DNA from: a virus
Virus record (IMG/VR): IMGVR_UViG_3300011114_000354
Location: 1 to 30,117 of that record
Reading direction: 5' to 3' (one strand)
DNA length: 30,117 bases
In this document: in pieces, positions 6,963 to 17,359 of the stretch
Numbering within the stretch: position 1 is the stretch's first letter
Layout of the letters: every line of letters begins with the position of its first letter
The notes under the pieces: generated by a model
What the model was told of the DNA's origin: nothing
Database searches by the model: none
The model's input: only the letters and a program-made list of their open reading frames with translations
Translations under genes and position numbers: made by a program

Positions 6963-8819
6963 ATGAACGACACGCAGACTCAAATCGAACGGCTAATTGA
7001 ATTGGCTATCGTGCAGCGCACCGAGCTGCGGCAACTAGTCGAGCAGCTCCCGCAGTTGCGCGACCATCTCAACGCCGAGATCGAGCGCACGTTCGAGGAA
7101 GTGGAGCCGCAGATTCGCGTCGAACTCGAGGAGTTTTGCCGAGCGCGCGCGACCGACGAGCACGCGAAAACCGGAGCGGCGCTGGCAGCTAAAGTCGACG
7201 AACTATCGAAGAAGCTCGAGGCCACGACGTCGGCAAAATACTCGGTGCTGCTGGCCGAGCGCGCTCACAACGTAGAGCTGGAGCGGATCGCAACGGAGCA
7301 AGTCGCGCAGGCGGCAAATCAAATTCCGCAGCAGGTCAAAGCGATCGTTGCGGACGAGCTTTCTCGATTCCCGCGCGCAGGAGAAATCGACCAACTACGC
7401 AAAGAATTCGCGACTCCCGCGGGTCTCAATCCTCGCGGCAAGTGGCAAAGCGGCCAGACGTACCAGCGGCTCGATGTGGTCAGCTACAACGGAAACTCTT
7501 ACATCGCTAACGGCGCCACAAGCGAGAAGCCGAGCGTGACCTCGAGCGCATGGACCATCAACGCCGCGCGCGGAGTGGGCGGCGGCGGCCCGTCGTCGCT
7601 CAACGAGCTTACGCAGACGCCCAGCAACGGCTCGGTGCTGATCGGATCCGGCACGTCGTGGGTGACCTCGACGCTCACGGCCGGAACCGGCATCTCGATC
7701 GCGAATGCGGCGGGGTCGATCACGATCAACGCGACGGATGGAAACATCACGCTCGACGACGGCACGGCAGCGGCTCCATCGCTAAACTTCACGAACTACC
7801 CAACGACCGGATTTTATTCGAGTGCGGCAAATGCAATCGGATTCGCGACGAGCGGCGTGGCTCGCGGAAACATTTCATCGACGGGGCTCGCAGTCACCGG
7901 AACCGTTGTTCCGAGCGGATCGGTGCACGCGGCAAACGGTTCGGTAGGGAATCCGAGCATTGCGTTTAATTCGGATCAGACGACCGGCATCTATCGCATC
8001 GGCGCGAACAACCTCGGCGTCTCGGCAAACGGGGCGAAGGTTTTGGACGTCGCGACGACGGGGCTGGGCATAACCGGCTTGGCGACGATCTCCTCCTCCA
8101 CCGCCTCCACCGGCGTCGGCACCGGAGCCCTCCAAGTCGTGGGCGGCATCTATGCGGGAGCGGCGAGTGTGTTTGCCGCTGACTTGAGCGTGAATACTCT
8201 CCGCGTCGGCGCTGGAAATGGCACGGCAACATACAATACGGCTCTGGGTTATCAGGCGCTCAACGGCGCAAACAGCGGATCGGGACGGAATACTGCGATT
8301 GGTTACACAGCGCTTTTAAGCAATACGACCGGAGACAACAACACGGCGATCGGGTTTGAGGCTCTTGCGGTCGGAACGACGAACATTGGGAACGTCGGCA
8401 TTGGGTCGCAAGCACTCAAAAACACCACAGGAAATTACAGCGTAGGAATAGGTATGCAGGCTCTTTATACAGGAACTTCTGCAAACAAAAATACCGCGAT
8501 CGGATCCTTTGCGCTCTACACTACTAACGGAACGAACAATGTGGCGTTGGGCTATGGCGCAGGATCAGTAGCGACTGGATCGAACAAGTTCTATGTCGGC
8601 AACGTACAACAAACTACCGAAGCAAACGACGCCGCTTACTCCTTACTTTACGGCACGTTTTCTGGATCGGCTGGATCGACGACTGGCCAAACGCTGGCGA
8701 TCAATGCGGTCGTTTCGATCCTTAACCCAGTCGGCGCAGGCGCTGCCGTAGCCTCAACGCACAAAGTTACTATGGTGATCGGCGGCGTCACTTACTATCT
8801 CCTCGCCAGCAACGTCTAA
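6963..8819 (+). CDS. Fibre protein with coiled-coil stalk and YadA-like head repeats
   Basis: A 618-aa likely trimeric receptor-binding fibre or virion appendage. Residues 1-140 are charged and helical (coiled coil). Around 159-182 is a WQSGQTYQRLDVVSYNGNSY carbohydrate-binding-like motif seen in phage fibres. Residues about 265-370 contain two fibre repeats of the PS-aF-sdqTTGiYr type (NFTNYPTTGFYSS; AFNSDQTTGIYRIG). Residues about 427-538 contain repeated NTAIGYTAL / NTAIGFEAL / GIGSQAL / NTAIGSFAL units, like the head beta-roll of YadA-type trimeric autotransporter adhesins. There is no signal peptide or membrane anchor, so it is a virion-type protein rather than a secreted adhesin. Its place inside the head genes is unusual. 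Confidence 0.85.
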   Translation: MNDTQTQIERLIELAIVQRTELRQLVEQLPQLRDHLNAEIERTFEEVEPQIRVELEEFCRARATDEHAKTGAALAAKVDELSKKLEATTSAKYSVLLAERAHNVELERIATEQVAQAANQIPQQVKAIVADELSRFPRAGEIDQLRKEFATPAGLNPRGKWQSGQTYQRLDVVSYNGNSYIANGATSEKPSVTSSAWTINAARGVGGGGPSSLNELTQTPSNGSVLIGSGTSWVTSTLTAGTGISIANAAGSITINATDGNITLDDGTAAAPSLNFTNYPTTGFYSSAANAIGFATSGVARGNISSTGLAVTGTVVPSGSVHAANGSVGNPSIAFNSDQTTGIYRIGANNLGVSANGAKVLDVATTGLGITGLATISSSTASTGVGTGALQVVGGIYAGAASVFAADLSVNTLRVGAGNGTATYNTALGYQALNGANSGSGRNTAIGYTALLSNTTGDNNTAIGFEALAVGTTNIGNVGIGSQALKNTTGNYSVGIGMQALYTGTSANKNTAIGSFALYTTNGTNNVALGYGAGSVATGSNKFYVGNVQQTTEANDAAYSLLYGTFSGSAGSTTGQTLAINAVVSILNPVGAGAAVASTHKVTMVIGGVTYYLLASNV

Positions 8820-10307: not shown

Positions 10308-11243
10308 ATGGCATCTATCATCGCATTCTCCGCAGCGGTTGGCGCAATTGATACCGAACTCGGGATCATCCGTGGCGTCTCTCTAATCACCGAGGGGCCG
10401 GCTCTCGGGCACGGCGTGATGATCGACGCCAAGACGCTGCAACAGGTAAAGGCCGCGGCGGATCTCTACTCGGGCGGTCTCAAGGTAAAGCTGGATCACA
10501 ACAGTGGCGCCGGGGAAATCATCGGCTTCATCTCAAATCTGCGAATCGTCGGGCCGAAGCTGCTCGGTGATCTCAACCTCCTGGCGTCGTCTCCACATCG
10601 TGGATACGTTCTGGAAATCGCGCAGAAGATTCCCGACACATTCGGGCTTTCGATCGCGTTCTCTGGGCCGAGCGAACCATCGAGCGACAAGCTCACGACT
10701 TTGCAACGGTGCAGCGAAATCTACTCGGTAGATCTCGTTTCTGAACCCGCTGCCAACCCTGACGGATTCTTTTCTCGCAAGGCGAAACTCGCGACCGAAA
10801 AGAACGACCCAAAGGCATCTCCAAAAACTGAATACGCTATGACGCCAGAACCAGTCAAAACATACGCGGACGACATCCAGGCGGCACTCATGCCGATTCT
10901 CGATCGTCTCTCTAAACTCGAGGCCGCGATGGCCGACGATCCCGAAGCCGACGTTGCAATGAGCTCGAAGAAAAACGTGATCACGCTCGCTGCGAATGCC
11001 GCTGCGCTCGCGACCATCAAAGAGTTTTCCAAAACCTTAGGCGCGCCTGTCGCTTCCGTCGCTTCCGCTGAGGCCGTGAAGCCAGTCGCTCAAGTCGCAA
11101 AAACCTTTGCTCAGATCGTCGCTGAAAAAGCCGTCGAGCTGAAGAGCAAGTCCGAGGCAATTTCCTTCGCCGTTAAAAATCACACTGCCGAATACGCGGC
11201 TTACCGTGCGGCTGTTTCCGCCGGCGAACTGATCAAACTCTAA
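10308..11243 (+). CDS. Capsid maturation protease with C-terminal scaffold region
   Basis: A 311-aa protein in the lambda C/Nu3 position. The N-terminal domain (about 20-165) has a prohead-protease layout: LDH with likely catalytic His64, then GEIIGFISNLRIVGPKLLGD, then FGLSIAFSG with likely catalytic Ser115, and SVDLVSEPAANPDGFF at 140-155, a signature near the end of such domains. After residue 170 the protein becomes Ala/Lys/Glu-rich and helical, as expected of scaffold that fills the prohead and is later degraded. An in-frame ATG at 10839 (residue 178) lies at the domain border and could give a separate scaffold protein, as in lambda. The exact peptidase family (S78-type or relative) is not certain. 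Confidence 0.8.
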   Translation: MASIIAFSAAVGAIDTELGIIRGVSLITEGPALGHGVMIDAKTLQQVKAAADLYSGGLKVKLDHNSGAGEIIGFISNLRIVGPKLLGDLNLLASSPHRGYVLEIAQKIPDTFGLSIAFSGPSEPSSDKLTTLQRCSEIYSVDLVSEPAANPDGFFSRKAKLATEKNDPKASPKTEYAMTPEPVKTYADDIQAALMPILDRLSKLEAAMADDPEADVAMSSKKNVITLAANAAALATIKEFSKTLGAPVASVASAEAVKPVAQVAKTFAQIVAEKAVELKSKSEAISFAVKNHTAEYAAYRAAVSAGELIKL

Positions 11244-11255
11244 TCTCTAAAAATC

Positions 11256-11615
11256 ATGGCTACTCAATATCTAGGCGCAGGCACTTTCGTTGCCAACAGC
11301 GCTCTCACCGCCTTTCGCGCGGTAGTAATCTCGAACAATCGCGGTGTCGGTCTCGCTGCCACCGCTGGCTCCGTCGATGGCATCACGCAGATCGACGCTG
11401 CTTCCGGTGATTACGTCACCGTCGCTTTCCTGCACGGGCAGGGCACTCAAAAAATCTCTATGCTTGCTGGTCCGATTACGGTCGGCGACACGATCTACAT
11501 CGGCGCAAACGGGCTCGGTTCCGTCGCCGGCACGATCGTTCTCGGTAAAACTCTTACGACTGCGACCGAGGCCGGCGCGGTGGTCGAGTTCATTCCGAAA
11601 CTGAACAACCTCTAA
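11256..11615 (+). CDS. Head decoration protein, DUF2190-like
   Basis: A 119-aa all-beta protein between protease and major capsid protein, the position of lambda gpD. The run of features (AVVISNNRGVGLAATAGSVD, VAFLHGQGTQKISMLAGPIT, VGDTIYIGANGLGSVAGTIV, then a VVEFIPKL end) matches the DUF2190 type: repeated short strands with a 'Gd-iY-g-nG-v' turn. These proteins sit on the outside of the capsid at symmetry axes and stabilise it after expansion. The start ATG follows CTCTAAAAATC with no Shine-Dalgarno sequence. Confidence 0.8.
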   Translation: MATQYLGAGTFVANSALTAFRAVVISNNRGVGLAATAGSVDGITQIDAASGDYVTVAFLHGQGTQKISMLAGPITVGDTIYIGANGLGSVAGTIVLGKTLTTATEAGAVVEFIPKLNNL

Positions 11616-11634: not shown

Positions 11635-12603
11635 ATGGCTTATTCAAATGCAGCCGCGGTATTTCGTGGCGATATCGCCGGTGTCCTCGAGCAGTCGAAA
11701 GATTGGTCAAATGGACTCATCGGAACCCAGGTAATGTCTGTGCTCAACGTGCCTGTGCGCGCTGGGCAGTATCCGACTTTCCTGCTCAAGGAAGGGCAAC
11801 TCCTGAAGCAAGGCGCGAAGCAGCGCTCCGTCGGTGGAGCTTATCCTCGCGCGACGCAATCGTTCAACCAGGACACATATACCGCGATCGAGTACGGAAT
11901 TGAAAACACTATCGACGACGTTGTGACCGCGGACATGGCTCGCTTTTTCGATGCCGAAGTAATTGCCGGGAAACTTTCTCAGCGTTCGCTCATGCTCTCG
12001 CACGAATTGCGCGTCGCGGCAAAGATCTTCGACAATACCGTTTTTACAACGACGACCTCGGCCACTGCCTATACTGCCGCGAACCTGGCTACGTTCGACT
12101 TCGGGGCGGACGTGGACGACTGCAAAGATCGGTTGTTGGCGAAGGGCGAAAGCATCGACAATCTGAAGGTCGTTCTTTCGAGTCCGGTTTACAACCGCAT
12201 CAAGGCATCGACGAAATTTCAAAACCGTTTGCGCGGCGCCGGAATTTCTACTGACACCTTTTTGAATGTTGGTCTTGCCGCCGCTGCCGAAGCTCTCGGC
12301 GTGAAGGAAGTCCTAATTGGTCGTTGTAGTTACGACAGCGCGAATGAAGGTGCCGCCTTCTCCAGCGCAAATATCTGGAGCAATACGTTGGTATGGGTTG
12401 GCTCGGTGTCCGACGGTGCAGCCGGCTATTTTGGAGGCGGCGCAGGCTTCACCCTTAACTGGTCGGAGTACGGTCCCGTTATCGGCGTGACGACCTACCG
12501 CGAAGAGGCCATCAAATCGAACGTCGTGCGTGCGTCGCACTATGTCGCTGAAAAGATCGTGAACAGCAATGCCGGCCAGCTGATCACCACGCAGTATACC
12601 TAA
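11635..12603 (+). CDS. Major capsid protein (HK97 fold expected)
   Basis: A 322-aa protein directly after protease and decoration genes and followed by a strong terminator, as expected for the most expressed virion protein. Visible features include a helical N-arm, a FLLKEGQLLKQGAKQRSVGG region, a long helix-rich spine (ARFFDAEVIAGKLSQRSLML), a DDCKDRLLAKGESIDNLKVVLSS segment that often precedes the A-domain in this class, and a C-terminal VASHYVAEKIV-type helix/strand. It forms the icosahedral shell. Assignment rests on length, synteny and overall pattern. Confidence 0.88.
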   Translation: MAYSNAAAVFRGDIAGVLEQSKDWSNGLIGTQVMSVLNVPVRAGQYPTFLLKEGQLLKQGAKQRSVGGAYPRATQSFNQDTYTAIEYGIENTIDDVVTADMARFFDAEVIAGKLSQRSLMLSHELRVAAKIFDNTVFTTTTSATAYTAANLATFDFGADVDDCKDRLLAKGESIDNLKVVLSSPVYNRIKASTKFQNRLRGAGISTDTFLNVGLAAAAEALGVKEVLIGRCSYDSANEGAAFSSANIWSNTLVWVGSVSDGAAGYFGGGAGFTLNWSEYGPVIGVTTYREEAIKSNVVRASHYVAEKIVNSNAGQLITTQYT

Positions 12604-12623
12604 TCGTCGCAAGTTAGTTTCGG

Positions 12624-12661
12624 AACCTCGCACCTTCACCGGTGCGGGGTTTCTTGTTTTT
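12624..12661 (+). terminator. Strong intrinsic terminator after the major capsid gene
   Basis: An 11-bp stem pairs 12624-12634 (AACCTCGCACC) with 12641-12651 (GGTGCGGGGTT), with one G-T pair and a six-base loop, followed by TTCTTGTTTTT. It sits 20 bases after the capsid stop and just before the glycosyltransferase cassette, so capsid-level transcription should drop here. Confidence 0.9.
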
Positions 12662-12679: not shown

Positions 12680-14380
12680 ATGCGGATTTCTCTTTGCGTA
12701 ATTTGCGGCAACGAACGCGAGCACATCATCGCGATGCTCAACGCATTTGCTCCGATCTTCGAGGAGCTTTCGCTGGTGCGCGCAATCGGGATCAAACCAG
12801 CGGACGAGACGGAGCAGATGGCGCGCGACTGGTGCACGGCAAAGGGCGTTTCCTTCGTGTTTAACGAGCATAAAAACGAACTAGGGGCCGAGACCTGGGA
12901 GCACGTCGATTCGTTCGCAAAAGCGCGGAACGCGGCATTCGCTCAGGCGACCGGCGACTGGCTGATCTGGGCCGACTGCGATGACGTCGTTGAGCAGCTC
13001 GATGGATTCCGTCAACGGCTCGAGCAGCTGCCGGCCGACGTCCTGATGGTTCGGTGCTTTTACGATGTCCGCGGAACAAATAAGCGGCTCTACCGGGAGC
13101 GCGCGATCCGGCGGCACGCTTTCCGCGATCGGCGCGTCTGGCATCACGACGTTCACGAAAACCTGCTCCTGCTCCCGAATGATCACCACCAGGACTGGCC
13201 GGCGCCGGTTTGGGTTCACGCTCCGGTGGTGGTCAAACGCGAGAACCGCCGGCGCAATCTGCGCATCTTGGCGCACTCGGTGCGCGAGGTCGCGGCTCAG
13301 TACTTTTACATTCACCAAGAACATTTCTGCTCTGGCAATCGAGACGCCGCGATGGCTTTCGGAAAGATCGCGCTTTCGTTCCCAAACCTTCAGCCGGCAT
13401 TTCGGTATGAGTCGCTAATCAACTTGGCTAAACTGTGCGGCAATCACCGCGAGGCGCTCGGCTACCTGATGGAAGCGCACGCGGTTTACCCGTGGTGCCG
13501 CGAGGCTCTCGCGCATTTGATCCTGCTCTATTTCGAGAAAAACGATACGCATCGGGCCAGCTATTGGGCCGATAAAATGCTCGAGCGCGGAGAACCAACC
13601 GAAGCCGACCGGCCGTGGACGCACGAAGTGAAGTGGTACACCTGGGCCGGTCAGGATCTCGCGGCTCGAGCGTTTCGGCTGCACGGAAATCTGGCGCGCG
13701 CGGCTGTCTTGCAAGCTCAGTTTTATAATGGGAGAACGCCGCGGATCTCGCTCTTGCACGCGACTCGAGAACGATCATCGAAAGCGGTTGCGTGTCGCGA
13801 TGCCTGGCTGTCGTCGGCGAGCAACGCAGCGCAGATCGAGCACATCTTTGCCGTCGATGCAGACGACAAGGATTCAAAAGAAATGGCGGTGCAATTTGTG
13901 AGCGTCGTCTCCGAGAAAAAGTCCTGCGTCGCAGCGTGGAATCTCGCGGCAAAAAAAGCGACCGGCGACATCTTTGTGCAGCTGTCCGACGATTGGGTGC
14001 CGTCAATGAGATGGGACTCAAAAATTCTCGCAGAATGCTCCGAGAAAGATCCGGCATTCGACTCGTTCGTGATCGCAATCAACGACGGGCACCGGACCGA
14101 TAACCTGCTGTGCATGGCAATCTGCTCTCGCGCTCGGTACGAGCAGCAGGGCCGCGAGCTTTTTCACGATGGTTACGAGTCAATGTATTCGGATAATGAA
14201 TACAGCGCAAGGGCTTGGAAAGATGGCGTCGTCATCGACGCGAGAAGCCGCATCACCTTCGAGCATCTGCATCCGGCTTTCGGCCGTGCGCCGATGGATA
14301 AAACCTACGAACACAACAACGCGCCTGAGCGATACAAGGCCGGCAAGGAGTTGTTCGAGCTGCGCAACCCAACAAAATGA
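12680..14380 (+). CDS. Tandem GT2-type glycosyltransferase with helical-repeat linker
   Basis: A 566-aa protein with two GT-A-like domains. The first (about 1-200) opens with MRISLCVICGNEREHIIAML, has an acceptor-type ARNAAFAQATGDWLIWADCDD segment and the metal/nucleotide-binding DCDD at 99-102. Residues about 205-345 are helical with TPR-like pairs (AMAFGKIALSFPNLQPAFRY; ALGYLMEAHAVYPWCREAL). The second domain (about 355-560) starts ISLLHATRERSSKAVACRDAW and has AWNLAAKKATGDIFVQLSDDW with an Asp pair near 437. Such enzymes move a sugar from an NDP-sugar to an acceptor. It begins a three-gene chain with the methyltransferase and GT9-like genes. The acceptor may be a virion protein or a host surface glycan; the sequence does not decide. 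Confidence 0.85.
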   Translation: MRISLCVICGNEREHIIAMLNAFAPIFEELSLVRAIGIKPADETEQMARDWCTAKGVSFVFNEHKNELGAETWEHVDSFAKARNAAFAQATGDWLIWADCDDVVEQLDGFRQRLEQLPADVLMVRCFYDVRGTNKRLYRERAIRRHAFRDRRVWHHDVHENLLLLPNDHHQDWPAPVWVHAPVVVKRENRRRNLRILAHSVREVAAQYFYIHQEHFCSGNRDAAMAFGKIALSFPNLQPAFRYESLINLAKLCGNHREALGYLMEAHAVYPWCREALAHLILLYFEKNDTHRASYWADKMLERGEPTEADRPWTHEVKWYTWAGQDLAARAFRLHGNLARAAVLQAQFYNGRTPRISLLHATRERSSKAVACRDAWLSSASNAAQIEHIFAVDADDKDSKEMAVQFVSVVSEKKSCVAAWNLAAKKATGDIFVQLSDDWVPSMRWDSKILAECSEKDPAFDSFVIAINDGHRTDNLLCMAICSRARYEQQGRELFHDGYESMYSDNEYSARAWKDGVVIDARSRITFEHLHPAFGRAPMDKTYEHNNAPERYKAGKELFELRNPTK

Positions 14381-14997
14381 GAATACCAGACGGCTACGAA
14401 ATCTGCAAAGAGACCTGCGCGGTCAAATCTATTAGTCGAGAAATCACCGCAAATTACGATCACGCCTACGTCGCACGCTACGAGGATTACCCGCAGGCCG
14501 AGCTCTCAAGGATCCGAGCAAGCCTGATGATGAAATACGTCGGCGACTTCAAAACCATTTGCGACGTGGGATTCGGCACCGGCGCATTTCTCGCAGAGAT
14601 CGGACGAGTCAATCCATCTGCGACGCTGCACGGTTTCGATGTGTCGCCGTACCCGCCGCCGGACTTCGTCAAAGTGGAGTCAAACTGGCAGGAAAAAGAG
14701 TGGGACGTGGTAACATTTTTCGACTCGCTGGAGCACTTCGTTGACTTCCCGAAAGTGCACGCAAAATTCGTCGTGGTCTCGGTGCCGTGGTTTCATTCCT
14801 GCAACGGAAATAAATGGTTTCTCGAGTGGAAACATCGCAGGCCCGGTGAACACCTGTGGCACTTTAATTCGGCGACACTCCCTAGCGTATTCGAGAAGAT
14901 GGGAATGCGTAAAATTTACTGCGGCAATCCGGAGGACAAGATCCGCAAGGGCGACGGTGTACTGCCGAACATTTTGACGATGATCTTTACGCGATGA
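14377..14997 (+). CDS. Class I SAM-dependent methyltransferase
   Basis: A 206-aa Rossmann-type methyltransferase: motif I at 61-69 (ICDVGFGTG), an acidic residue after strand 2 at Asp88 (HGFDVS), and FFDSLEHF at 114-121 as motif IV. A KHRRPGEHLWHFN segment follows, as in methyltransferases of sugar/glycan clusters (UbiE/BioC-like architecture). It overlaps both flanking glycosyltransferase genes by ATGA, so it is probably made and works with them, for example methylating a sugar to cap or mask a glycan. The substrate is an inference. Confidence 0.85.
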   Translation: MRIPDGYEICKETCAVKSISREITANYDHAYVARYEDYPQAELSRIRASLMMKYVGDFKTICDVGFGTGAFLAEIGRVNPSATLHGFDVSPYPPPDFVKVESNWQEKEWDVVTFFDSLEHFVDFPKVHAKFVVVSVPWFHSCNGNKWFLEWKHRRPGEHLWHFNSATLPSVFEKMGMRKIYCGNPEDKIRKGDGVLPNILTMIFTR

Positions 14998-15695
14998 AAA
15001 TCTGCCTAGTCTACTCGCAGCGACTTGGGGACATCATCCGGATCCTGCCGATTGCGCGGCACTTTGCGGATCGCGGCCACGATGTCCGCATCGAGTGCTT
15101 GCCGCAGTACCACGATCTCTTCGACTGCGTGAGCTATTGCCGGCCATCGACCATCGGCGAACGCTCTGAGCATCGTTTCCTGATGGTGCTCGACCTTGAA
15201 ATCTGGCCGAACCGGTACGACGAGTTCATCCGATCCGGCCAGACCTGGCTCGATTTCATTTACAAAGCGACGCCGGAGTTCGCCGGCATCAATCGCAAAC
15301 CAGTTTTCGACGAGATCGACGAGATGCCGAGCCTGGCGGATTACGGTTTGCCGGCCGACGTCGCGATCTTTTCGCCGTTTGGTTACTCGCAGCGCAACCG
15401 TTACCCGCTTCAAAAGCTCGCCGAACAGGCAAGGAAACGAATCGGCGGGGCATTCGTGACGCTGGCCGACTCAGGACACGCGGATGCGCTTTTGAGGGCT
15501 GGAATCGCCAAGGAATCGATTCTCACCGCGCGCCGATCGTCGCATCTCCCGCGGTTGCTGCGGGACGCTCGAGCGGTTTTCACGATTAACTCTGCACCTT
15601 CGATCATTTGCGGCGCCGTGCGCTCGGAGTTTTGGCACGTTCTCGATAACGATCCGCAGAACGACGCGATCTCGCCGGCGTCTCGCATCGTTTGA
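14994..15695 (+). CDS. GT9-like (heptosyltransferase-type) glycosyltransferase
   Basis: A 233-aa protein beginning MKICLVYSQRLGDIIRILPI, the N-terminal RLGD...LP signature of ADP-heptose:LPS heptosyltransferase-like GT-B enzymes, then HFADRGHDVRIECLPQY. A late ARAVFTINSAPSIICGAVRSEFWHV segment occupies the place of the donor-binding ITvDTG..HLAaa box. At 233 aa it is shorter than usual GT9 enzymes (about 320-350), so part of the GT-B fold is reduced. It is the last gene of the glycosylation chain (ATGA overlap with the methyltransferase) and stops 16 bases before the head-tail joining gene. Confidence 0.75.
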   Translation: MKICLVYSQRLGDIIRILPIARHFADRGHDVRIECLPQYHDLFDCVSYCRPSTIGERSEHRFLMVLDLEIWPNRYDEFIRSGQTWLDFIYKATPEFAGINRKPVFDEIDEMPSLADYGLPADVAIFSPFGYSQRNRYPLQKLAEQARKRIGGAFVTLADSGHADALLRAGIAKESILTARRSSHLPRLLRDARAVFTINSAPSIICGAVRSEFWHVLDNDPQNDAISPASRIV

Positions 15696-15711: not shown

Positions 15712-16032
15712 ATGGCCGCAGTCCGAGACTTCGATTCAACGCAACTCCAAGCAGATTATGATGCAATTTTAGCGCAGGCTGGCGTCACGTTCACTTATTT
15801 TGGAACGACCGTCACCGGTATCTGGTCGAGCTCTCGAAATATGTTCGATGAGTTCTCTGAGCAGCGCAGAGAGGAGGAGAAGTTTACCGTGTTTTTTACG
15901 ACCAACCAGGTTGTGACAACGCCGAAACAATCGCAGACCTGCGCTCGGGCCGGCATCACTTATTTTTTAGAGCAAGTGCGATTTGATACCGAGGGAACGG
16001 GCTGCGAGTTTGATATTTGCCGAGACATTTAA
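15712..16032 (+). CDS. Head-tail joining protein (gpFII position)
   Basis: A 106-aa protein between the capsid block and tail genes, in the position of lambda gpFII. Sequence MAAVRDFDSTQLQADYDAIL followed by beta-rich FTYFGTTVTGIW and FTVFFTTNQVV segments suggests a small beta-barrel adaptor. A GGAG at 15701-15704 is spaced eight bases before the ATG, one of the better ribosome sites in the late region. Assignment is mainly by order; sequence similarity is not obvious by eye. Confidence 0.6.
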   Translation: MAAVRDFDSTQLQADYDAILAQAGVTFTYFGTTVTGIWSSSRNMFDEFSEQRREEEKFTVFFTTNQVVTTPKQSQTCARAGITYFLEQVRFDTEGTGCEFDICRDI

Positions 16033-16034
16033 AC

Positions 16035-16925
16035 ATGATCTCGGTTACGCTAGACTCGAAAAAATTAGATTTTGCGCTCGAGCGTTTGGCTCAAGCCGCA
16101 AAGTTAGATCTTGGCAAAGTCATTAAACAGGAAGGCGGGAACGTCGCAAAATCCATCATGATGATCCTCCCGCCGACGGCGGTTGTCGCTCAAAAGGATC
16201 CGGCCAAAAAACCAAAAAGCCAGGGCTTGAGCCAGAAGGCTTACCAGCAGGGAACAAACGCCATCAAAGGCGATTTATTCGGCGGCAAAAAAAAGACCAT
16301 TGCTCGTTATTCTTCGGTCGGACTATTCCAAAGAATAGGATCATCCACGCAGATTCCTCCGAGAAAAACAGATGGAGCGACAATTGGTGTGCACCTCGGC
16401 TGGGAGCGCTCAAAGAGCGTGCGCATCATGCGTCAATTTTGGATACCAGGCGCGTCGATCGGCGCGATGAAAGCGTTTCACAAGCGATATAAAAACCCAA
16501 AGACGGGACGCACAGGACACATTTCACAAAGCGTCATCGGACGATGGAAAGTCCAAGACCAGATGTGGGTGGGCAACGATCAGGCCGAATCTTATTTCAA
16601 CGAGCTTAAAAGCAAAGTGGGCTGGGCCAAAGCTGGCTTCGCCGCAGCTGCTCTTGCGTGCGGGATCCGCGTTCCCGCGTGGGTACGACGGCACGCTGGC
16701 GATGCCGGGATAGAAGCGCACAACTTCAACGCAAATCCTTTCGTGACCGGAACTGCGAAGAACATCAAGGTGCCGGATCCGGAGCGCTACGTTAAGTCAG
16801 CTATGGAATTTAGAGAAAAAATAACCCTGCTAAAGGTTAAAGCGATCCTTGCTAATCGAGCCGTGAACCTCGGATTCGCGAAAATTGATGGCGCGGGAAA
16901 AGTCACAGAAAACATGCCGACATGA
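16035..16925 (+). CDS. Tail completion / HK97 gp10-like minor tail protein (gpZ position)
   Basis: Start ATG 16035 (MISVTLDSKKLDFALERLAQ) is preferred over an in-frame start six codons upstream that would overlap the previous gene. The 296-aa protein has the typical opening of tail-completion proteins: a strand, a helix (ALERLAQAAKLDLGKVIKQEG) and a helix leading to ILPPTA. The middle is Lys/Arg-rich. It is longer than lambda gpZ (192 aa), with extra sequence in the C-terminal half. It is coupled to the next gene by ATGA. Expected role: finishing the head-proximal end of the tail before joining. Confidence 0.65.
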   Translation: MISVTLDSKKLDFALERLAQAAKLDLGKVIKQEGGNVAKSIMMILPPTAVVAQKDPAKKPKSQGLSQKAYQQGTNAIKGDLFGGKKKTIARYSSVGLFQRIGSSTQIPPRKTDGATIGVHLGWERSKSVRIMRQFWIPGASIGAMKAFHKRYKNPKTGRTGHISQSVIGRWKVQDQMWVGNDQAESYFNELKSKVGWAKAGFAAAALACGIRVPAWVRRHAGDAGIEAHNFNANPFVTGTAKNIKVPDPERYVKSAMEFREKITLLKVKAILANRAVNLGFAKIDGAGKVTENMPT

Positions 16926-17359
16926 GCACACGAACCGACATTCGCAATGCGATCGGAACTAAGCTGACGACCGCGGCCGTCTGCGTAACCGCAAACCTGA
17001 TACGCGGACGAAACAACACGATCTCTTCGACGAGCTTTCCGGCGTGCGCAGTTTACGCGATCAACGAGCAAATCGAGGTGCGCTCGCTCGCGCCAAATAA
17101 TCGCACGCAATATCGGCAGCTCCAGGTTCAAGTCGATTATTTCACAGGAGAAGTAGCCGGATCAACGACCATAATTGACGATCTTTTCGATACCGGCAGC
17201 GCTGCCGTCGAGGCCGCGGTACTTGCGGACCCAACATTGAACGGGACTTGTCGCGATCTGCATTTGTCAAATGTGGACTATGTAATTGAGCCAGACGAAG
17301 AACGCCGCTGGGGCACCGCGAGGCACACCTTTAACTGCATCTATTTAACCACAGACTAA
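16922..17359 (+). CDS. Tail terminator-like protein (gpU position)
   Basis: A 145-aa protein with TDIRNAIGTKLTTA at the start, a FPACAVYAINEQIEVRSLAP strand region, TQYRQLQVQVDYFTGE, and an end of VDYVIEPDEERRWGTARHTF. This alternation (helix, strands, 'r.l.v.V.......' then 'w....~f.~.y') is typical of tail terminators such as gpU, which cap the tail tube and set its end. It lies one base before the tail tube gene and overlaps the gpZ-like gene by ATGA. Confidence 0.65.
   Translation: MSTRTDIRNAIGTKLTTAAVCVTANLIRGRNNTISSTSFPACAVYAINEQIEVRSLAPNNRTQYRQLQVQVDYFTGEVAGSTTIIDDLFDTGSAAVEAAVLADPTLNGTCRDLHLSNVDYVIEPDEERRWGTARHTFNCIYLTTD

Follow-up and report, generated by a model that had tools for sequence, protein, structure and literature searches.

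The glycan-enzyme cassette directly behind the major capsid protein (MCP) gene of the phage studied here probably assembles a glycan on one of the head proteins of that phage's own particle. Its leading enzyme looks to be of a protein-glycosylating type and lies behind the capsid gene, the helper genes that follow it are swappable, and phages of this kind therefore most likely sugar-coat their own heads. The acceptor is most likely a head protein, with both the MCP and the decoration protein as candidates.

Layout of the locus

The window, by which we mean the whole stretch of DNA analysed, is a 30,117-base IMG/VR virus record with a siphovirus-like late region, in which terminase, portal, protease, decoration protein and MCP genes are followed by the cassette and then by connector and tail genes (Table 1). 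The cassette comprises three open reading frames, all on the plus strand, that encode proteins of 566, 206 and 233 residues and are joined by ATGA overlaps at 14377 and 14994; the sequence-only reading had placed three such genes after a capsid terminator, and its coordinates and overlaps were exact. Beyond the Hc1-like gene, an open reading frame without assignment (16017-16925) precedes the tail terminator gene (16922-17359). The decoration protein also matches Pfam Phage_cement_2, with an E of 7e-4 that is below the Pfam cut-off.

Table 1. Positions in the window of the cassette and its neighbours
Feature	Positions	Strand	Basis
Head decoration/cement-like protein, 119 aa; candidate acceptor	11256..11615	+	PHROG 673 E 2e-9
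MCP, 322 aa; candidate acceptor	11635..12603	+	PHROG 1005 major head protein E 1.4e-30
Intrinsic terminator in the gap between MCP gene and cassette	12622..12660	+	13-pair stem (hairpin 12622-12653) and T-run
GT2-TPR-GT2 fusion, 566 aa; core cassette enzyme	12680..14380	+	Pfam GT2 E 6.5e-14
N-terminal GT-A domain, SunS/GmaR-like, residues 1-200	12680..13279	+	PDB profile matches
TPR-like helical domain, residues 201-348	13280..13723	+	TPR-protein profile matches; helices in model
Second GT-A domain, about residues 350-566	13727..14377	+	PHROG 14945 E 1e-19
SAM methyltransferase, 206 aa; optional member	14377..14997	+	Methyltransf_23 E 5e-12; PHROG 6564 E 1e-13
Compact GT9-fold glycosyltransferase, 233 aa	14994..15695	+	AF2 model fold
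Head-closure Hc1-like protein; bounds the cassette downstream	15712..16032	+	PHROG 82 E 4e-3, Phage_attach E 0.02 (weak)

Two further genes of the window were noted. A 618-residue protein encoded between portal and protease (6963-8819) matches virion structural, tail-spike and tail-fibre families; the position is unusual for such a spike-like gene, which varies among relatives. At 56-1243, a fused ParB-like nuclease and DNA methyltransferase adjoins the terminase genes.

A terminator-like site is present in 101 of 110 distinct intergenic regions between MCP and glycosyltransferase (GT) genes, against 11.5 expected from mononucleotide shuffles. Such a terminator would hold capsid output high, and read-through would supply the enzymes at a catalytic level. 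Purifying selection acts on all three cassette genes (dN/dS 0.07-0.26), and this, together with the recurrent terminator-like site and the recurrence of the arrangement in hundreds of contigs, shows that the arrangement is not due to chance.

The core enzyme

Both halves of the 566-residue protein have PHROG glycosyltransferase matches, and its AF2 model, built from an alignment of 28 relatives, has a mean pLDDT of 90.7. A GT-A domain with a DxD motif is followed by a TPR-like helical domain, as in SunS, ThuS and GmaR, although those enzymes have a single GT domain and the window protein has a second. By sequence profile, the best solved relatives of the N-terminal domain in the PDB are GmaR (E 2e-15, residues 3-203) and SunS (E 1e-9). 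In the model, residues 1-292 superpose on SunS and ThuS, helical part included, with Z of 21.8-23.4 and rmsd of 2.7-3.1 over 263-272 residues (for SunS, Z 23.4 and rmsd 2.7 over 263 residues, query residues 1-284). The DxD and HE motifs line up with those of SunS/ThuS, and R83, N84, D99, D101, D102, H159 and E160 are identical in all 239 distinct N-terminal domain sequences.

The second GT-A domain, at residues 353-566 in the model, is predicted to fold like those of WrtF, RmlT, TarS and ppGalNAc-T (Z 15-17). Transferases for polysaccharide and teichoic acid (TarS, RmlT, WrtF) share the GT-A fold too, so we can only infer the class of acceptor. The two-domain architecture had been taken to suggest a processive or scaffolded enzyme, an idea that comparison did not support: it is peptide glycosyltransferases that the N-terminal GT matches jointly with the helical repeats, and the dual-domain polysaccharide synthases K4CP and heparosan synthase fit both domains together only at 17-21 Å rmsd, with domain placement in the single-chain model being uncertain. 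Relatives of the second domain occur as stand-alone proteins in Verrucomicrobiota genomes. In a large sub-lineage of the phages, judged from the examples read (L120, L146, L182), the second domain is truncated, its DDW motif is lost and a separate GT gene lies directly behind; in L140 this decay has gone only part of the way.

Methyltransferase and GT9-like enzyme

Judged from its sequence, the 206-residue protein is a class I methyltransferase. The 233-residue protein has no match to Pfam, PDB or other curated sequence families, and no glycosyltransferase-9 match was found across 20 members. An R-L-G-D motif, shared with the GT9 heptosyltransferases, lies close to its N-terminus. Its AF2 model (mean pLDDT 93.4) has the two-Rossmann GT-B fold of WaaC and WaaF and matches GT9 folds over the whole chain (WaaF Z 16.3, WaaC Z 15.1, TibC Z 12.5). 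The domain and fold matches support the proposal that these are glycan enzymes, and the predicted fold bears out the GT9-like assignment of the sequence-only reading.

Linkage to the capsid gene

A scan of IMG/VR with the GT returned 283 relatives. To avoid circularity, the loci surveyed for linkage were picked by MCP similarity alone, in three MCP lineages that are 36-38% identical to the window MCP. A GT2-TPR domain was found behind the MCP in 226 of these 227 places among the best 80 matches per query (77/77, 72/73 and 77/77 by lineage set), where a place was counted if it had at least about 330 bases downstream of the MCP in the first set and at least 400 bases in the other two. As the best 80 matches each, these sets sample near neighbours of each query, and the majority of the contigs are fragments. 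The sole miss, contig L310, ends 664 bases past the MCP inside a gene classed by eye from its translation as lectin-like (LamG), the type of gene that precedes the GT in some relatives. A survey for linkage at the locus had been proposed in the sequence-only reading, and the contrary picture that it named, homologues scattered without linkage to capsid genes, is not what we observed.

The window MCP had no match among the records of the phage collection. A GT is neither annotated nor detected directly behind the distant MCPs (about 22-27% identity) of the cultured phages Laroyevirus and Enterobacter phage Mulvp2, and none was detected behind the related MCP of a prophage-like region in Verrucomicrobium sp. 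BvORR034 (L417, reverse strand, MCP 10471-11442), which is a possible outgroup; the cassette is therefore not tied to this MCP family as such. A GT search of genome contigs returned mostly relatives of the second domain, in Verrucomicrobiota; the others were two short contigs of phage-like character, from MAGs labelled Betaproteobacteria and Thermoleophilia. That the hosts might be Verrucomicrobiota is a guess, for which the Verrucomicrobium region gives a hint.

The cassette stays with the head module

All three lineages have homologous genes for portal, protease, decoration and capsid proteins; when lineages 2 and 3 were aligned to lineage 1 with hhalign, the probabilities were 100 for the MCP, 99.9-100 for the protease and 97-98 for the decoration protein. 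In contrast, none of the downstream gene families of lineage 2 (nine) or lineage 3 (three) matches a lineage-1 connector or tail family (best probability about 12), and the downstream genes of lineages 2 and 3 have no match to each other (best probability 16). The majority of these downstream genes carry no annotation; a PHROG search named none of the lineage-2 genes downstream of the cassette, so these are tail genes by position only. With head genes homologous and downstream genes not, it is the head that the cassette stays with, although this linkage could in part be due to an old insertion and to tail swaps downstream of the cassette.

Comparison of the window with its closest relative, L002, revealed an MCP dS of 1.8 (L002:3536-4501) flanked by low values in near-identical genes, 0.31 for the decoration protein and 0.27 for the GT. 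Judging from this difference, a recombination event confined to the stretch between the decoration and GT genes seems to have replaced the MCP by itself, which hints at a partnership between those two. Mirror-tree tests singled out none of the MCP, decoration and connector genes as encoding the acceptor. The decoration protein had the highest overall correlation, but its rho of 0.68 was a block effect that arose from the presence of two types of second domain; the MCP comparison carries a selection bias, since similarity to MCP or GT decided which loci were included; and in lineage 1 the distances of Hc1 follow those of the GT, with rho values within types of 0.53 and 0.73.

A constant core and an exchangeable periphery

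We compared 83 distinct complete intervals between MCP and Hc1 genes in lineage 1, GT-selected loci included. Methyltransferase and GT9 genes are both present in 32; nine have the GT9 gene without this methyltransferase, and eight have neither. Another 33 belong to the sub-lineage whose examples, where read, combine a truncated second GT domain lacking the DDW motif with a separate GT gene, and the remaining one is intermediate. The cassette is thus not the self-contained three-gene system that had been envisaged: the core is limited to the SunS/GmaR-like half with GT2 and TPR, one sub-lineage shows decay of the second GT, and the methyltransferase and GT9 genes can be absent or have others in their place.

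Most of the genes exchanged around this core are glycan genes, among them those for DUF5672, GT2-like and GT7-like enzymes, FkbM and Methyltransf_24/TylF-like methyltransferases and an NDP-sugar epimerase (L221:13381-14277). Other methyltransferases and a B12 radical-SAM protein (L232:3304-4608) are also among the variable members; the latter and the epimerase are encoded inside the cassettes of relatives. One cassette also holds transketolase-like and alcohol-dehydrogenase genes (L128:10560-13662). The presence of these four gene types suggests unusual sugars made by the phages. In lineage 2, LamG/concanavalin-like genes that likely encode carbohydrate-binding head decoration proteins lie between MCP and GT genes (L242, L243, L213, L310), and some lineage-1 contigs have an HNH-like gene in that position (L019:974-1702, L134:9019-9702).

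Proposed function and alternatives

We propose that the N-terminal GT-A and TPR half would add the first sugar to a peptide in either the capsid protein or the decoration protein, a step modelled on SunS, ThuS and GmaR acting on their own acceptors. The GT9-like enzyme, and with it the second GT-A domain at the C-terminus, may then extend the glycan, and the methyltransferase would cap it. The invariant catalytic signature, the predominance of glycan genes among the exchanged neighbours, the appearance of TibC among the matches of the GT9-like enzyme, the LamG genes next to the MCP and the gene order of Podoviridae sp. ctSlx955 (see below) are all counted in favour of this proposal. It is also possible, although we regard this only as a tentative extension, that a large lineage of uncultured phages depends on protein glycosylation as an obligatory step in assembling its heads or keeping them stable, with GT2-TPR as a hallmark of the head module and its exchangeable partners giving a lineage-specific glycan coat.

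Enzymes of these types are typical of O-antigen and lipopolysaccharide loci, and the cassette might instead act on the host's surface glycans, changing its lipopolysaccharide or capsule and thereby blocking superinfection or changing serotype, and have come to lie in the late operon by chance. The matches of the second domain to WrtF, RmlT and TarS and of the GT9-like model to WaaC and WaaF fit this idea, as do the stand-alone second-domain relatives in Verrucomicrobiota. We nevertheless consider it unlikely, given that among the best 80 matches per query the GT is near-universal behind the MCP in three lineages and goes with the head rather than the tail module, that the first domain resembles peptide glycosyltransferases, and that expression from the late operon would come late for exclusion. 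The sequence-only reading had left the target between virion and host surface; the linkage to the head module makes the virion, and putatively its head, the better target and speaks against the host surface. If the virion is modified, a connector or tail protein rather than a head protein could be the acceptor. This is improbable in our view because the cassette is kept although downstream genes are unrelated between lineages, even if Hc1 and GT distances do correlate in lineage 1 and, in PMC12363180 and PMC12619734, the mycobacteriophage tail tube is described as glycosylated besides the capsid.

Frequent exchange of the distal genes is what would be expected of non-essential cargo hitch-hiking between capsid and tail genes, but the retention of the core domain in all but one of the places surveyed (best 80 matches per query), its invariant catalytic residues and the low dN/dS make this account very improbable. 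The idea that the glycosyltransferases modify phage DNA, as some phage enzymes do (Pyle 2024, as cited in PMC12619734), is barely credible here: the folds resemble peptide and glycan transferases, the 30-kb record, which may be incomplete, has no thymidylate synthase-family gene, and the window genes scanned include none for base hydroxymethylation.

Antibody shielding, the usual account of phage virion glycosylation, is hardly applicable to environmental phages. In many uncultured phages, as seen here, a glycosyltransferase of the protein type belongs to the core and is tied to the head module, with the first enzyme constant and the later ones exchangeable. The question of why phages glycosylate their heads thereby becomes testable with recombinant head proteins. 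A GT2-TPR gene directly behind the MCP gene can also serve as a marker for finding further viruses of this kind.

Comparison with known systems

PMC12363180 and PMC12619734, citing Freeman et al. 2023, report that the mycobacteriophages Che8, Corndog and Myrna carry glycosylated virion proteins, capsid and tail tube, and that this shields them from antibodies. As described there, phage-encoded GTs act on capsid and tail-tube acceptors; the window cassette also has phage-encoded GTs, with a head protein as the likely acceptor. The GT genes of Che8 (108-110) lie near the right genome end, away from the capsid gene, whereas that of the window is directly behind the MCP gene. Alignment of Che8 gp108-110 with the window GT by hhalign gave probabilities of 0.5-4.8 over short generic GT stretches only, and homology to the Che8 glycosyltransferases was rejected on that ground. 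We know of no TPR-GT2 fusion, methyltransferase or GT9 in mycobacteriophage glycosylation. Virion glycosylation as such is known from these phages; a capsid-locked core GT2-TPR cassette was not found described in the literature searched, which consisted of open-licence papers.

SunS (from the SPbeta prophage) and ThuS are S-glycosyltransferases that modify small peptides and share the GT-A and helical fold of residues 1-292; unlike them, the window enzyme carries a second GT domain in the same chain, and its gene is linked to that of a capsid protein. GmaR of Listeria, which acts on flagellin, is a cellular enzyme, and its likeness to the window protein spans the solved GT-A domain only. WaaC, WaaF and TibC have about 320-390 residues, compared with 233 for the GT9-fold enzyme of the window, and the predicted GT-B fold is common to both.

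Among phages, the groundwater phage L428 (MW202497) encodes a 567-residue GT2 protein between terminase and portal genes, beside an additional glycosyltransferase and a gene annotated groEL. In Pseudomonas phages D3 and PMG1, as in the window, a terminator lies behind the MCP gene, followed by a gene annotated as a sialyltransferase, and a related methyltransferase gene lies ahead of a gp10-like gene, although no GT2-TPR-GT2 gene is annotated. Podoviridae sp. ctSlx955 (MW202743), also from groundwater, differs in being a podovirus, in its 761-residue GT and in an MCP without detectable relation to that of the window; yet its gene order runs from the MCP through one gene to a GT2-TPR protein, further GTs and a methyltransferase, and this GT2-TPR protein matches that of the window with a probability of 98.7 over GT and TPR.
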